NCBI GenBank assembly: GCA_027859125.1
Contig: JAQIBK010000214.1
Span: 1 to 34,582, forward strand
Length of the DNA: 34,582 nt
Reading direction: 5' to 3'
From: Actinomycetota bacterium
Lineage (GTDB): Bacteria > Actinomycetota > Coriobacteriia > Anaerosomatales > UBA3086
Made by a program: the position numbers and the translations under genes. The notes below the pieces were generated by a model. The model was not told the DNA's origin, ran no database searches, and saw nothing but the letters and a program-made list of their open reading frames with translations. Positions 8,803-33,369 of this stretch are shown here, piece by piece; position 1 is the first letter of the stretch; each line of letters opens with the position of its first letter.

Positions 8803-8879
8803 GCCGACGTAGCTCAGCTGGCCAGAGCACCGCACTCGTAATGCGGGGGTCAGGGGTTCGAATCCCCTCGTCGGCTCCA
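8803..8879 (+). tRNA. tRNA-Thr(CGT), encoded CCA
   Basis: GCCGACG...CGTCGGC acceptor pairing, anticodon stem-loop CCGCA-CTCGTAA-TGCGG (anticodon CGT), GGTTCGAATCC T-arm, TCCA 3' end. Confidence 0.93.
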
Positions 8880-24767: not shown

Positions 24768-25352
24768 GTGGTGAGACTTGCGAGAATCTTGCGACTCTGT
24801 GTGATCCTTCTGGCAACGTGCGCACTCGTCTTGAGCGCGGGCTGCAGCAAGGATGAACCGGCCGAGGAGACCACAGAAGCCGTCGAGTCAGCCGACGCAC
24901 CTGAGGCCCCATCCGGCCTTGAGGTTGCCGTCGACGACGAGCCGATGGAAGCTGAAGTCTCAGATGCCGACGTTGCGGCCACTGAGGACGAGGCTGACGT
25001 GGACGCGGCGACGAATGATCCGGTACTTGGCCCACTATCGGCCGAGGTCTCATGGGCTTATCTCACCGACATGTATGAGGACAACGGCTACTGGTATGTG
25101 GTCGTTGATTACATCCAGGTGATCGGTCCGGAGGACGACATACAGTTCGTGAATCAGAACCCGCAACTCAGGACGTTCCCACTCGCACCAAATGCGAACC
25201 TCCAGGTTCTTCGGGATACCGGCTCACCGGATTACGATTCTGTTTCAGTCGCCGATTTCCACACATTCCAACAGCAGGACGGCGATGAGCTGGTCGAGGT
25301 CACCCCGGACAATGGGTACGCCTCGCAGTTGACCCAGTGGTGGTCACCCTAG
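24768..25352 (+). CDS. Acidic lipoprotein
   Basis: Signal peptide VVRLARILRLCVILLATCALVLSAGC with lipobox LSAGC; long Asp/Glu/Ala-rich linker then a compact C-terminal domain. Confidence 0.75.
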   Translation: MVRLARILRLCVILLATCALVLSAGCSKDEPAEETTEAVESADAPEAPSGLEVAVDDEPMEAEVSDADVAATEDEADVDAATNDPVLGPLSAEVSWAYLTDMYEDNGYWYVVVDYIQVIGPEDDIQFVNQNPQLRTFPLAPNANLQVLRDTGSPDYDSVSVADFHTFQQQDGDELVEVTPDNGYASQLTQWWSP

Positions 25353-26064
25353 GTGTAGTTCCCACATAGGTTATTGACAGTTGAGGACCCCGTCCTGGTG
25401 AGTGCTGCGTCTCGGCCCGCGGGTGTCTCGCGGCAGACCGGCGGCAAGTGGGTCGCGAGGTATCGTCGATCCGGTGAACCCGGTTTGCTCGATGTCAGCT
25501 CACGCCCGCATCGCATCCGACCGCGTGTCACGAAGAGACACTGTCGACGCATCCTCAAGGCGCGGCTTCGTTACAAGCGCGGTCCGCACTGGCTGTCCTG
25601 GCGACTGAAGATATCGCGCTCGACGATCTATGCGGTCCTGCGCAGGTTCGGGATCAGCCGCCTGAAGCCAAGATCCACTGAGCCGTGCGTTCGCTATGAG
25701 TGGCCGGAGCCAGGCGACCTGATACACCTCGACGTGAAGAAGCTCGGACGGATCAAACCCGGCGGCGGCCATCGTGCCTTCGGCCGAGGTCCGGGGATGC
25801 ATCACAAAGGTGTGGGCTGGGAGTTCGTCCATATCGCGATCGACGACCACTCACGTCTGGCGTATGAAGAGTTCTGTGCCGACGAACGCGCCGAAACGAC
25901 AGTAGGGTTCGTCAGAAGAGCTCTGGACTTCTTCGAGTGTGTTGGGATCGAGACGAGGTGCGTACTCACGTACTACAATCTAGAACGTCCACATGGAGGC
26001 ATTGATGGTCAGCCGCCGATCTCGCGGGTCAACTGACAACAACGTCCATGGGAACTGCATCTAG
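25349..26064 (+). mobile_element. IS481-family insertion sequence remnant with imperfect terminal inverted repeats and CTAG at both ends
   Basis: Left end CTAGGTGTAGTTCCCACATAGGTTATTGACAGTTGA; reverse complement of right end CTAGATGCAGTTCCCATGGACGTTGTTGTCAGTTGA; 28 of 36 positions identical by hand. Transposase fragment lies inside. Confidence 0.82.
25374..26036 (+). pseudogene. IS481-family transposase with internal in-frame deletion (second D and E of the DDE triad missing)
   Basis: GVSRQTGGKWVARYRRSGEPGLLDVSSRPHR helix-turn-helix, GDLIHLDVKKLGRI (first D), VHIAIDDHSRLAYEE; then CVLT joins directly to YYNLERPHGGIDGQPPISRVN, skipping the expected TDNGS...PRTNGKAERF segment. Confidence 0.85.
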
Positions 26065-28400: not shown

Positions 28401-28512
28401 CAGTCTGTCATCTTCTGGTTGACCCGCGGCACCATCTGAGGGGAATATGGAGATGTCCCCCCAACCCCCATCCTGCCGTTCCACTTGCGGCCCACCTGCG
28501 GAGGCACTCCCT

Positions 28513-29550
28513 ATGGATCAGCCGAACACCCCGGCACAAACCAGTCCCGACTCGTATGCCGCGCAGGCGCAGCAGTACGCGGCGTACTATGCTCAGCAGG
28601 CGCAGCAGCAGTCGCAGCACCAGGTGACGCCGACTCCGCCGTCCAAGATGGGCACTGGCTGGAAGGTGTTGATCGGCTTCGTTGCCCTCTCCGTACTGGG
28701 TGCTTGCGGTCTTTGTGGAATCTTGGCCGTATCGATCCCCTCGAACGACGGGGTTCACGGCGATTCCATCGCGCTGATCCACGTCACAGGCGTGATCTCC
28801 GGTACGGGCAGCGCAGTCAACGGGGTCGTCACGCCCGAGAACATGCTCAGCTTGCTTGCTGCAGCAGAGAACGACCCCAGTGTTCGTGCGGTGCTTCTGC
28901 GCATCGACTCGCCCGGCGGAACAGTAGCAGCATCCGAGGAGATCTCGACTGAGGTGGCTCGCATGAGCAAGCCGGTGGTCGCGAGCATAGGCGACATAGG
29001 CGCTTCCGGCGCCTACATGATCGCTTCCCAATGCGATGAGATCGTGTCTTCGCGCACTTCCTCGGTGGGTAGTATCGGTGTGATCGCCGAGGTCATGAAC
29101 CTGGAAGGGTTGCTGGAGAAAGTGGGCGTGGACTTCACCGTCATCACCGCTGGTGAGTTCAAGGACGCAGGCAGTCCGTATCGATCGATCACGGAGACGG
29201 AGACTGCGCTGATCGAGCATTCCGTGGATATGGCGTATCAGGAGTTCATCGATGTGGTCGCTCGCGGCCGAGGGCTCGATCGCGCATCGGTCGAGGAGAT
29301 GGCCACCGGATGGGTCTGGTCCGGCGTGGAAGCCCAGGAGATGGGACTCGTGGACACCTTGGGAACATTCAACGATGCGATCGATCGCGCGGCTGATCTG
29401 GGGGGCATCGAGGGGGATCCGTACATCGTGACGTACGACGAGTACGATCCGTTCGATGTCATCTGGAGCCTTCTTGGCATCCGAGACAGGCTCTCGCCGG
29501 CCAGCGCACTCGACAACGAGGCGATGCTGCGACGGTCGCTGCCCCAGTAG
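28513..29550 (+). CDS. sppA: Signal peptide peptidase SppA-type S49 protease with Gln/Ala-rich N-terminus
   Basis: ALIHVTGVISG, LLRIDSPGGTVAASEEI, SIGDIGASGAYMIASQCDEI, GSIGVIAEVMNLEGLLEKVGVDFTVITAGEFKDAGSP. The start could be further upstream at 28447. Confidence 0.9.
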   Translation: MDQPNTPAQTSPDSYAAQAQQYAAYYAQQAQQQSQHQVTPTPPSKMGTGWKVLIGFVALSVLGACGLCGILAVSIPSNDGVHGDSIALIHVTGVISGTGSAVNGVVTPENMLSLLAAAENDPSVRAVLLRIDSPGGTVAASEEISTEVARMSKPVVASIGDIGASGAYMIASQCDEIVSSRTSSVGSIGVIAEVMNLEGLLEKVGVDFTVITAGEFKDAGSPYRSITETETALIEHSVDMAYQEFIDVVARGRGLDRASVEEMATGWVWSGVEAQEMGLVDTLGTFNDAIDRAADLGGIEGDPYIVTYDEYDPFDVIWSLLGIRDRLSPASALDNEAMLRRSLPQ

Positions 29551-29584: not shown

Positions 29585-30382
29585 ATGAGCGGTGAGGGAC
29601 CGATCGTCATAGCGCATATCTCGGATCTGCACTGTGGGTCCCGCTACCACATTCCCAGCCTAGCAACCCGGGTGGTGGATGAACTCAACGATCTGGCTCC
29701 GGACATCGTGGTCGTCACAGGTGATCTGACGGACATGGGCTATCAGCCGGAGTTCCATCGCGCACACCGACTGCTCTCCCGACTCGAGTGCGAGCACTTG
29801 CTGGTCCTTCCCGGGAACCACGATGCCCGCAACGTGGGCGACGAGCACTTCCAGGACCTCTTTGGCACGAGGAGCAAGGAGCTGGTCTTCGACCGGCTGC
29901 GCATTCTCACATTGGACAGCACTGAGCCGGACCTGGACAACGGACGAGTGGGGCGCGGTCGTTATCCCTACATCGAGGATCGCTTCTCCGACCCGACCGA
30001 GTTCAAGATACTGTGTCTTCATCACCATCTGGTGCCTGTCCCTGGAACGGGGCGCGAGCGCAACATCGTGCACGATGCGGGTGATCTGCTGCGCGTACTC
30101 TCCAATACTGGCGCAGATCTCGTGCTGTGCGGACACAAGCACGTCCCCAACATCTGGCGTCTCGAGGACATGCTGATCGTGAACGCGGGCACCGCGTGCA
30201 CGCATCGGCTGCGCGGCAAGGTCCGGCCCTGCTACAACCTGATAGAGATTCACGACGACGGACGTGTTCGCGTGCTGCTCAAGGAGCCGTACCAGGACCC
30301 GCAGGTGGTGGCCGACTTCCTGGATATGAACCAGCAGTCCTGCAAGTGGGAGCGAAGATCGGAATCGGAGGAGCCTTCATGA
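29585..30382 (+). CDS. Calcineurin-like metallophosphoesterase
   Basis: IAHISDLHCG, VVTGDLTDMG, VLPGNHDARNV, CLHHHLVPVPG, VLCGHKHVP. Confidence 0.92.
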   Translation: MSGEGPIVIAHISDLHCGSRYHIPSLATRVVDELNDLAPDIVVVTGDLTDMGYQPEFHRAHRLLSRLECEHLLVLPGNHDARNVGDEHFQDLFGTRSKELVFDRLRILTLDSTEPDLDNGRVGRGRYPYIEDRFSDPTEFKILCLHHHLVPVPGTGRERNIVHDAGDLLRVLSNTGADLVLCGHKHVPNIWRLEDMLIVNAGTACTHRLRGKVRPCYNLIEIHDDGRVRVLLKEPYQDPQVVADFLDMNQQSCKWERRSESEEPS

Positions 30383-31722
30383 CACGAGTGGTGGCACTCA
30401 TCGATGGAGAGCACTATCCGCCCGTGGTCCGCTTCGCGCTGGCCGGACTCGGTCACGAGTACGATGTGGTCGCTGCCGCCTTCATTGGCGGAACAGAGAA
30501 GGTCGACCTGCAGGCAGGCATGGCCACCTATGGAGTACCGGTCGTGACGGCCGCTACGGCCGCAGAGGCGCTTGCACTGGCAATCGACCGATACGACCCC
30601 TGCGCCGTGATCGATCTCTCCGATGACCCCGTCCTGTCTCCGGCCGATCGCTTCGAACTCGCGACAGTGGCGCTGTCCCGCGGCGTCGAGTATCGCGGCG
30701 CCGATTTCGTCTTCTCGCCACCGCGTTCCCGCATGAGCACCAAAACCCCTACGCTAGCCCTCATTGGCACCGGTAAGCGGGTGGGTAAGACGGCTGTGTC
30801 CGCGTACGTCGCCCGCAGGCTCAAGGCAGCGGGCCGCGACGTGGTCGTGCTCGCAATGGGCCGAGGAGGGCCAAGTGAGCCCGAGCTCATCGAGGGCGAG
30901 CATGTGCAGCTGACCACGAGTGACCTGCTCGAACTCGCCCGGCAGGGCAAACATGCTTCGTCGGACAACTACGAGGATGCCGTCATGAGTCGCGTCACTA
31001 CGGTGGGCTGTAGACGCTGTGGAGGCGGATTGGCGGGGGAGACGTTCTTCTCCAACGTGCCCGACGGGGCGCGGCTGGCCGATTCCCTCGGCAAGGAGCT
31101 CATCATGCTCGAGGGGTCGGGCGCGGCTATCCCACCGGTCGCATGCGACGCGACGATACTCGTCGTCGGTGCCGGTCGCGGTATCGAGTACGTGCGCGAC
31201 TACTTCGGTCCTTATCGCCTGGGGCTGGCCGATCTTGTGGTCATCGCATCCGCCGAGGAGCCGGTGGCGTCCGTAGCGGAGGTCGATGCGATCCGCGACG
31301 AGATCGCACGGCGGGCTCCCGGTGTTCCTTGCGTCGTCACGACCTTTCGGCCCGTCCCCCTGGAGCCGATCGCCGGAAAGCGCGTCTTCTTCGCCACCAC
31401 AGCGCCAGAGGGCGTGGTACCCAAACTCAGTGACTTCCTGCAGACAGAGTTCGATTGCGAGGTTGTTGCCGCGAGCGCACACCTCTCGAATCGTGAACTG
31501 CTGCGACGAGATATGCAGGCGGCTGGCGGTTCGTTCGATGTTCTCGTTACCGAGCTCAAAGCGGCTGCGATAGATGTTGTGGCGGCTGCGGGTGAAGAGG
31601 CCGGAGTGCCGACCGTGCTGTGCGACAACTTGCCCATCGCTTTGGACGGCTCCGATCTGGGAGTGTTGGTCGAGTCCGTGGCCGCGACCGCCATCGATCG
31701 GGGTTTGAGTAGGAAGGCGTGA
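30379..31722 (+). CDS. Cyclic 2,3-diphosphoglycerate synthetase-like protein
   Basis: MTRVVALIDGEHYPPVVRFAL N-domain, LALIGTGKRVGKTAVSAYVARRLKAAGRDVVVLAMGRGGPSEPELIEG P-loop region, NYEDAVMSRVTTVGCRRCGGGLAGETFFSNV, MLEGSGAAIPPVACD; ATGA overlap with the upstream phosphoesterase. Confidence 0.82.
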   Translation: MTRVVALIDGEHYPPVVRFALAGLGHEYDVVAAAFIGGTEKVDLQAGMATYGVPVVTAATAAEALALAIDRYDPCAVIDLSDDPVLSPADRFELATVALSRGVEYRGADFVFSPPRSRMSTKTPTLALIGTGKRVGKTAVSAYVARRLKAAGRDVVVLAMGRGGPSEPELIEGEHVQLTTSDLLELARQGKHASSDNYEDAVMSRVTTVGCRRCGGGLAGETFFSNVPDGARLADSLGKELIMLEGSGAAIPPVACDATILVVGAGRGIEYVRDYFGPYRLGLADLVVIASAEEPVASVAEVDAIRDEIARRAPGVPCVVTTFRPVPLEPIAGKRVFFATTAPEGVVPKLSDFLQTEFDCEVVAASAHLSNRELLRRDMQAAGGSFDVLVTELKAAAIDVVAAAGEEAGVPTVLCDNLPIALDGSDLGVLVESVAATAIDRGLSRKA

Positions 31723-32630
31723 GGGCAATGCCACAAGGCAAGCAGATAGTCCTGAGCGACAAGGCGCACGGCCTGCCCTTCTCCAAGGGGCTGCTCGCGC
31801 AGTCTTTCACTGCTACAGGGCTTGCGCCGAGTCGTGCGTATGAGGTCTCCTCGGCGATTCAGGAGGACTTGCGGGAGCACGACGAGCTCTCCATCACAGT
31901 CGTGCGCTTGAGAGAGTTGGGCCAGGAGTACCTTTCGCGTATGGCAGGCGAGGAGTACGCGGTGCGCTACCGCAAGATCGGCAAGCTCGGTCGGCTCGAC
32001 AAACCCCTGATCGTGTTGGTCGGTGGTACGACGGGAGTCGGCAAGTCGACTATCGCCACAGAGGTTGCTCACAGACTGGGAATCACCCGAATAACATCGA
32101 CGGATTCCATTCGTGAGGTCATGCGTGGTATCTTTACCAAGGACCTGATGCCCGCACTGCACGAAAGTGCGTTCAATGCGTGGCGAGGTCTTCGAGTCCC
32201 GGTGCCGCACGGCGCCAACCCCGTCATAGTTGGATTCCGCGAACAGACCGCGGTCGTTTCGACGGGTGTTCAGGCGCTTATCGATCGGGCGGTGCTCGAG
32301 GGCGTCAGCCTCGTAGTAGAGGGTGTCCACCTCGTGCCTGGCTATATCGATACGAAGCAAGTCAAGAATGCCCGGGTCGTGCAGCTTGTCATCGCCGTTG
32401 CAGACGAAGAAACCCACAGAAGCCACTTCTATATCCGCGAGGTTCAGACCGACGGAATGCGTCCAGTCGAGCGCTATCGGTCGAACTTTGGGAACATCCG
32501 TCTGCTCGGCCACTACATAGAGGATCTTGCACGTGAACGGGAGATTCCGGTCATCTACAGTCACCAGCTGGACCGGACGGTCGCAGAGACTCTCGAGTAC
32601 ATCGTGAATGCGGCCGTAGACCAGGGATGA
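31719..32630 (+). CDS. 2-phosphoglycerate kinase-like protein with N-terminal ATP-cone-like region
   Basis: Possible ATP-cone KQIVLSDKAHGLPFSKGLLAQSF...; P-loop IVLVGGTTGVGKSTIATEVAHRLGITRITSTDSIREVMR; GVHLVPGYI; GTGA overlap with the upstream gene (alternative ATG 31728). Confidence 0.83.
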   Translation: MRAMPQGKQIVLSDKAHGLPFSKGLLAQSFTATGLAPSRAYEVSSAIQEDLREHDELSITVVRLRELGQEYLSRMAGEEYAVRYRKIGKLGRLDKPLIVLVGGTTGVGKSTIATEVAHRLGITRITSTDSIREVMRGIFTKDLMPALHESAFNAWRGLRVPVPHGANPVIVGFREQTAVVSTGVQALIDRAVLEGVSLVVEGVHLVPGYIDTKQVKNARVVQLVIAVADEETHRSHFYIREVQTDGMRPVERYRSNFGNIRLLGHYIEDLAREREIPVIYSHQLDRTVAETLEYIVNAAVDQG

Positions 32631-32706: not shown

Positions 32707-33369
32707 GTGAAGTTCTTTCTAGACACCGCGAACATCGCGGACATCGAGGAGGCTGCGTCGTGGGGCGTGATCTCCGGAGTCACCACCAACCCCACACTCT
32801 ATGCCCGTGAGGGCGGCAACCTCGCAGAGTTCCACAACCACATCAAGCGGATCTGCGACATTGTCGACGGTCCGGTCTCGGCTGAGACCGTGGGCCTCAA
32901 GCGTGATGAGATCATCCGCGAGGGCCTCGAGCTTGCTGATCTGGCTCCCAATGTGGTCGTGAAAGTGCCCATGATGGTCGAAGGGCTCGCCGCAACCAAG
33001 GCGCTCTCCGACAAGGGCATCAAGGTCAACATGACGCTGTGCTTCACAGCGCCGCAGGCACTTCTCGCGGCACGGTCAGGTGCCGCATACATCAGCCCAT
33101 TCGTGGGTCGTTTCGACGATATCTCTGAGGATGGCATCGAGCATCTTGCCAACGTGGTGCAGGCACTGGGCAACTACGACTTCGGCCACGACGTCGAAGT
33201 CATCGCGGCGTCCGTGCGCCACCCGCAGCACGTTCTGGCGGCGTCCCTTATCGGTGCTGACATAGCGACGGTACCGATGAGCACGCTCGAGAAGTGCGTG
33301 AAGCACCCGCTTACCGACCGGGGACTGAAAGCGTTCCTGGATGACTGGGAGAAGGTCAAGAACTCATGA
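32707..33369 (+). CDS. Transaldolase / fructose-6-phosphate aldolase-like protein
   Basis: MKFFLDTANIADIEEAASWGVISGVTTNPTL, VVVKVPMMVEGLAATKAL, VNMTLCFTAPQALLAARSGAAYISPFVGRFDD; GTG start, RBS AAAGGAGAGG. Confidence 0.93.
   Translation: MKFFLDTANIADIEEAASWGVISGVTTNPTLYAREGGNLAEFHNHIKRICDIVDGPVSAETVGLKRDEIIREGLELADLAPNVVVKVPMMVEGLAATKALSDKGIKVNMTLCFTAPQALLAARSGAAYISPFVGRFDDISEDGIEHLANVVQALGNYDFGHDVEVIAASVRHPQHVLAASLIGADIATVPMSTLEKCVKHPLTDRGLKAFLDDWEKVKNS

Follow-up and report, generated by a model that had tools for sequence, protein, structure and literature searches.

We found that the window, the whole 34,582-nucleotide stretch of DNA that was analysed, carries one operon of three plus-strand genes, encoding a calcineurin-like phosphoesterase (PE), a predicted cyclic 2,3-diphosphoglycerate (cDPG) synthetase (cPGS) and a kinase of the 2-phosphoglycerate kinase (2PGK) family. 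Judged from their sequences, these genes very probably make cDPG in this uncultured, deep-branching actinobacterium and possibly break it down. The cassette is widespread and not peculiar to the window's organism, a point overlooked in an earlier note on the same DNA. That note had raised the possibility of a bacterial cDPG pathway, and we consider it likely that such a pathway exists, with the kinase and synthetase making cDPG, the PE returning phosphate and carbon, and the pool acting as a reserve and K+ counter-ion. Residue conservation, family specificity and phylum-wide co-occurrence all agree with the naming of cPGS and 2PGK and with a bacterial cDPG pathway. In the open-access literature searched, we found no paper on cDPG or cPGS in a bacterium. 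Named relatives place the window in the Coriobacteriia, order Anaerosomatales/OPB41, and the features discussed below are as follows.

28447..29550, + strand: SppA, signal peptide peptidase, a neighbour (TIGR00706, 217 bits)
29585..30382, + strand: PE, calcineurin-like metallophosphoesterase, 265 aa, proposed cDPG or 2,3-diphosphoglycerate (2,3-DPG) phosphohydrolase (PF00149, metal-site motifs)
30379..30382, + strand: ATGA stop/start overlap of PE and cPGS (sequence)
30379..31722, + strand: predicted cyclic 2,3-diphosphoglycerate synthetase (cPGS), 447 aa (8oru match, residues, tree)
31719..31722, + strand: GTGA stop/start overlap of cPGS and 2PGK (sequence)
31719..32630, + strand: 2-phosphoglycerate kinase family protein (2PGK), 303 aa (NCBIfam scores, Walker A, co-occurrence with cPGS)
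32707..33369, + strand: fsa, fructose-6-phosphate aldolase / transaldolase family, a neighbour (TIGR00875, 271 bits, cut-off 246)

Both 4-bp overlaps that the earlier note had described are present at these coordinates. An ATG at 29456 would give the PE a longer open reading frame; relatives conserve the start at 29585. The GTG start of 2PGK at 31719 is not certain: an alternative ATG lies three codons inside it, at 31728, and with that start the GTGA overlap with cPGS would vanish. Upstream of the cassette lie hom, thrB and sppA, and downstream fsa and then rho. No known RNA or riboswitch near the cassette reached its gathering score, the sole RNA match being a tRNA at 8803-8876. Further upstream, between an open reading frame at 24768-25352 and hom, sits another (25374-26036) whose translation, judged by eye, resembles part of an integrase-type transposase and is apparently shortened.

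The middle gene is well supported, from its sequence, as a predicted cyclic 2,3-diphosphoglycerate synthetase. No model in Pfam or NCBIfam matched the protein, and its best matches among PDB chains (phmmer) were to entries that carry the name cyclic 2,3-diphosphoglycerate synthetase: 8oru and 8ork at E 7.6e-120, and 9sxb at E 5.6e-106. We take 8oru/8ork to be the crystallised Methanothermus fervidus enzyme (MfcDPGS), since the numbering of its residues agrees with that in the paper describing the structure (PMC10690619); identity to it is 46%, and residues 3-426 of the 447 align to 8oru, with the unique N-terminal domain included. When the MfcDPGS residues named in that paper as binding 2,3-DPG, Mg or ATP or as lining the site were mapped onto the window's protein, 11 of 11 were identical: E40, K41, K133, R134, K137, T138, D196, E293, T341, E392 and K394, equivalent in the same order to E45, K46, K145, R146, K149, T150, D208, E305, T353, E404 and K406 of MfcDPGS. 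P335 of the paper was omitted from the mapping, residue 335 being Phe in the PDB-chain numbering. When 75 cPGS sequences of Actinomycetota, Bacillota, Methanobacteriota and Thorarchaeota were aligned, E45, K46, K145, R146, K149, T150, D208, E404 and K406 (MfcDPGS numbering) were invariant in 75/75, with T353 kept in 74 and E305 in 69. The structure-family match and this conservation rule out a chance match or mis-annotation, and the earlier note's naming of the gene is borne out.

In the tree of the same 75 sequences, cPGS of one actinobacterial family (f26; L132, L158 and L166) grouped, with moderate support, with archaeal and Bacillota sequences, apart from other Actinomycetota, a position that hints at transfer between lineages. 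Two Bacillota MAGs (L095 and L110) had cPGS and no detected 2PGK; either the genomes are incomplete or 2,3-DPG would come from another source.

The kinase had been called 2PGK-like in the earlier note, and at the level of family this assignment holds by resemblance. Against the NCBIfam 2-phosphoglycerate kinase models it scored 326 bits (PRK12337) and 304 bits (PRK04220), compared with only 88 bits for the mevalonate-3-phosphate 5-kinase model (PRK12339), and its Walker A motif is GGTTGVGKST. These scores are below the curated cut-offs of 603 for PRK12337, which describes a longer protein, and 343 for PRK04220, so the curated equivalog label is unearned. The Methanobrevibacter and Thermococcus kinases, which exceed the PRK04220 cut-off, are 35-40% identical to the window's kinase across most of its length, and the archaeal kinases and those of the bacterial cassettes make up one family with common motifs. 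PDB sequences offered no useful match to the kinase, and a fold search returned generic P-loop kinases alone. The kinase family is already recorded in bacteria, in Thermus and Deinococcus (COG2074), in a paper whose relevant passage makes no mention of cDPG or a synthetase (PMC1274311).

The genes occur together well beyond the window. Among 200 Coriobacteriia genomes, cPGS and 2PGK were found in the same 65, all in the window's order, with no discordance; both were lacking from four members of that order and from the remaining Coriobacteriia, save for one weak cPGS-like match (E 2e-7). Of 397 Actinomycetota genomes, 201 had cPGS, 198 had 2PGK and 194 had both (phi 0.94), and of 394, 198 had PE at a threshold of E<=1e-35, 193 of them together with cPGS (phi 0.94; PE in 193/200 cPGS genomes); shared ancestry inflates such counts, and the joint absence of adjacent genes is non-independent in draft genomes because one missing contig can cause it. 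Fisher p values ignore shared ancestry and were not used as a measure of evidence strength. The PE is conserved with the pair, in keeping with the coupled cassette that the earlier note had described.

PE, cPGS and 2PGK were contiguous in 28 of 35 diverse loci (in 23 families, none of them from the window's order, with the sample drawn mostly one per family), the exceptions having PE missing at the spot or 2PGK elsewhere or off the contig. Within the order, PE and cPGS overlapped (-4 bp) at 36 of 43 loci, while the spacing of cPGS and 2PGK varied among relatives. The conservation of all three genes in the same order across many families excludes a chance origin of the trio. One genome (G238) had PE and cPGS adjacent and 2PGK elsewhere, and in one lineage (family f33) and in archaea the genes were unlinked yet still co-occurred; neither PE nor 2PGK was adjacent to cPGS at the Methanobrevibacter and Thermococcus loci examined. 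Among 91 genomes of the methanogen phylum, 82 had cPGS, 80 had PE and 75 had both. These unlinked cases are more independent support for the association. Recent import into this organism from a methanogen is ruled out, as the cassette keeps one locus within the order and occurs in many other families, and by the depth and diversity of the Actinomycetota sequences.

The cassette sits in a conserved run, hom-thrB-(sppA)-...-fsa-rho, of housekeeping genes, so gene order alone is weak evidence. SppA, missing at the locus in many relatives, is probably outside the pathway. The downstream fsa, found in 26 of the 35 diverse loci, had been read in the earlier note as a sugar-phosphate context for the cassette. 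This reading is weak, as fsa belongs to the housekeeping run and adjacency need not mean shared metabolism, and we set the gene aside as a pathway member.

By association, the PE is a plausible candidate for a hydrolase of cDPG (or 2,3-DPG). The protein matches PF00149 Metallophos (E 1e-17) and has the metal-site motifs DxH, GD, GNHD, H and GHxH, with D14, H16, D47, N78, H79, H146-148, H184 and H186 invariant in 24 of 24 aligned members. An additional invariant signature comprises TGRER, R82, W191 and R210-G211; TGRER and R210-G211, like the metal-site motifs, are invariant in bacterial, archaeal and paralogous members alike. The fold nearest to its AlphaFold model (pLDDT 88.7) is that of Rv0805 and GpdQ, class III cyclic-nucleotide and glycerophospho-diesterases that share its binuclear metal motifs; identity over the fold is only 21-24%, the TGRER and RG motifs set the cassette family apart, and the score against the corresponding cyclic-nucleotide phosphodiesterase model (PRK11148, Rv0805/CpdA) was 42.7 bits for a cut-off of 225. 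An activity suited to the breakdown arm, cDPG hydrolase, has been established in methanogens, as have the 2PGK and cPGS reactions (PMC1224877). The activity described there, from Methanothermobacter thermautotrophicus, differs in being membrane-bound and inhibited by K+ and Pi, and the description consulted names no gene; the window's PE, judged by eye, has no obvious membrane segment. PE homologues of roughly 40-50% identity are found in most examined methanogen genomes with cPGS.

It is possible, though the less probable reading, that the kinase and synthetase make cDPG while the PE acts elsewhere, on a cyclic nucleotide or a glycerophosphodiester, and is linked to them by regulation or old gene order. 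The identity of the nearest solved folds would agree with this, as would a PE paralogue located apart from cPGS, the presence of the family in five Actinomycetota genomes and five of nine archaea without cPGS, five loci that lack PE (L035, L039, L080, L130 and L131), and the conservation of the entire hom-thrB...fsa-rho run, which makes adjacency weak by itself. Against it, PE tracks cPGS across the phylum, the two genes share a 4-bp overlap at most loci of the order, and the invariant TGRER, R82 and R210 would form a positive pocket suited to a polyanion. In methanogens PE is unlinked and still present in 75 of the 82 genomes with cPGS, which points to the PE as a candidate cDPG or 2,3-DPG hydrolase.

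The paralogue in the window's own genome (G000, contig C12:3-632; L164) is about 50% identical to the cassette PE. Several order-mates have a similar second PE (L160, L161, L162 and L163), which forms a separate branch in the tree, and no link to cDPG was seen in the context of the paralogue at L161, L162 and L164 (raw open reading frames). At three of the loci without PE, all from order-mates (L035, L039 and L080), sppA is followed directly by cPGS-2PGK; G136 and G085, the genomes matching PE-less order-mate loci, retain only the paralogue.

In the pathway that we favour, 2PGK would phosphorylate 2-phosphoglycerate drawn from gluconeogenesis to 2,3-DPG, and cPGS, a dimeric P-loop enzyme, would spend a second ATP on closing a ring between the 2- and 3-phosphates, giving the cyclic anhydride cDPG and releasing Pi. 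For the M. fervidus synthetase the proposed mechanism is that the gamma phosphate of ATP passes to the 2-phosphate, which the 3-phosphate attacks as Pi leaves (PMC10690619). The binuclear PE would then open the anhydride to 2,3-DPG and/or remove phosphate, returning stored phosphate and carbon, so that one co-translated unit would set the size of the cDPG pool. The pathway of Methanothermus fervidus and Methanothermobacter is alike in its two synthetic enzymes, in the catalytic residues of cPGS and in its expected substrates, which are gluconeogenic intermediates. It differs from the one proposed here, which has a bacterial host and a three-gene operon that includes PE.

Both synthetic enzymes might instead have drifted, such that a ligase resembling cPGS and a kinase resembling 2PGK make a different cyclic or bis-phosphorylated metabolite. 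The 2PGK superfamily does contain mevalonate-3-phosphate 5-kinase, the kinase scores under its equivalog cut-offs, and bacterial cDPG is unreported in the literature searched. We regard such drift as unlikely, given that every mapped residue for 2,3-DPG contact and ring closure is kept, nine of them without variation across bacteria and archaea, that the partner kinase is of the expected family and co-occurs with cPGS nearly without exception, and that the mevalonate-3-phosphate 5-kinase model falls so far behind the 2PGK models. The product of 2PGK, 2,3-DPG, is also the cofactor of the phosphoglycerate mutase dPGM in many bacteria. That the kinase chiefly supplies this cofactor, with cPGS and PE merely removing the excess, is highly improbable, as it leaves the conservation of cPGS, equal to that of 2PGK, unexplained, and the mutase of both cultured Anaerosomatales is cofactor-independent (PMC9686372), so that 2,3-DPG is unneeded there for that purpose. 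The same cultured Anaerosomatales lack phosphofructokinase and run gluconeogenesis (PMC9686372).

If made, the cDPG pool would most likely serve as a reserve of phosphate and carbon and as a K+ counter-ion, and may also stabilise proteins. The literature on cDPG stresses thermoprotection; recent papers continue to credit the solute to thermophilic methanogens alone, and a 2023 paper calls cPGS exclusive to hyperthermophilic methanogens. The gene has been recorded in thaumarchaeal ammonia oxidisers (PMC7554672), and cDPG itself in the gut species Methanobrevibacter smithii (PMC1224877). For Methanothermobacter, a discussion of cDPG treats it as balancing K+ and storing phosphorus (PMC4302986). 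The order Anaerosomatales includes a species growing at 14-42 C (optimum 30 C) and a strain growing at 25-77 C, which does not imply that either carries the cassette (PMC9686372). Cassette loci came from MAGs of permafrost palsa (L067), soda-lake sediment and groundwater, habitats taken from names only. Papers on Pyrococcus and Nitrosocaldus reportedly mention cDPG as well. Together, the growth temperatures within the order, the habitats suggested for the MAGs, cDPG in M. smithii and the K+ and phosphorus store of Methanothermobacter best fit storage and counter-ion as the role, which we infer to be the most likely one, with protein stabilisation a possible extra, rather than thermoprotection only.

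Database annotation of bacterial cPGS homologues very probably already exists, and the novelty here lies in the phylum-wide cassette with its PE partner and not in the detection of a homologue as such. More tentatively, cDPG metabolism may be old and general in deep-branching Actinomycetota, serving as a phosphoryl/carbon reserve at ordinary temperatures, and the PE family may be the cDPG hydrolase of these bacteria and the methanogens; the cassette PE offers one gene with which a cDPG breakdown enzyme could be tested for. If the proposed pathway is correct, bacterial enzymes would become available for cDPG production, and roughly half of a broad sample of Actinomycetota genomes would encode a solute described as exclusive to hyperthermophilic methanogens. 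The view of what cDPG is for would then shift from thermoprotectant towards store of phosphate, carbon and K+, and its chemistry may be common in bacteria.
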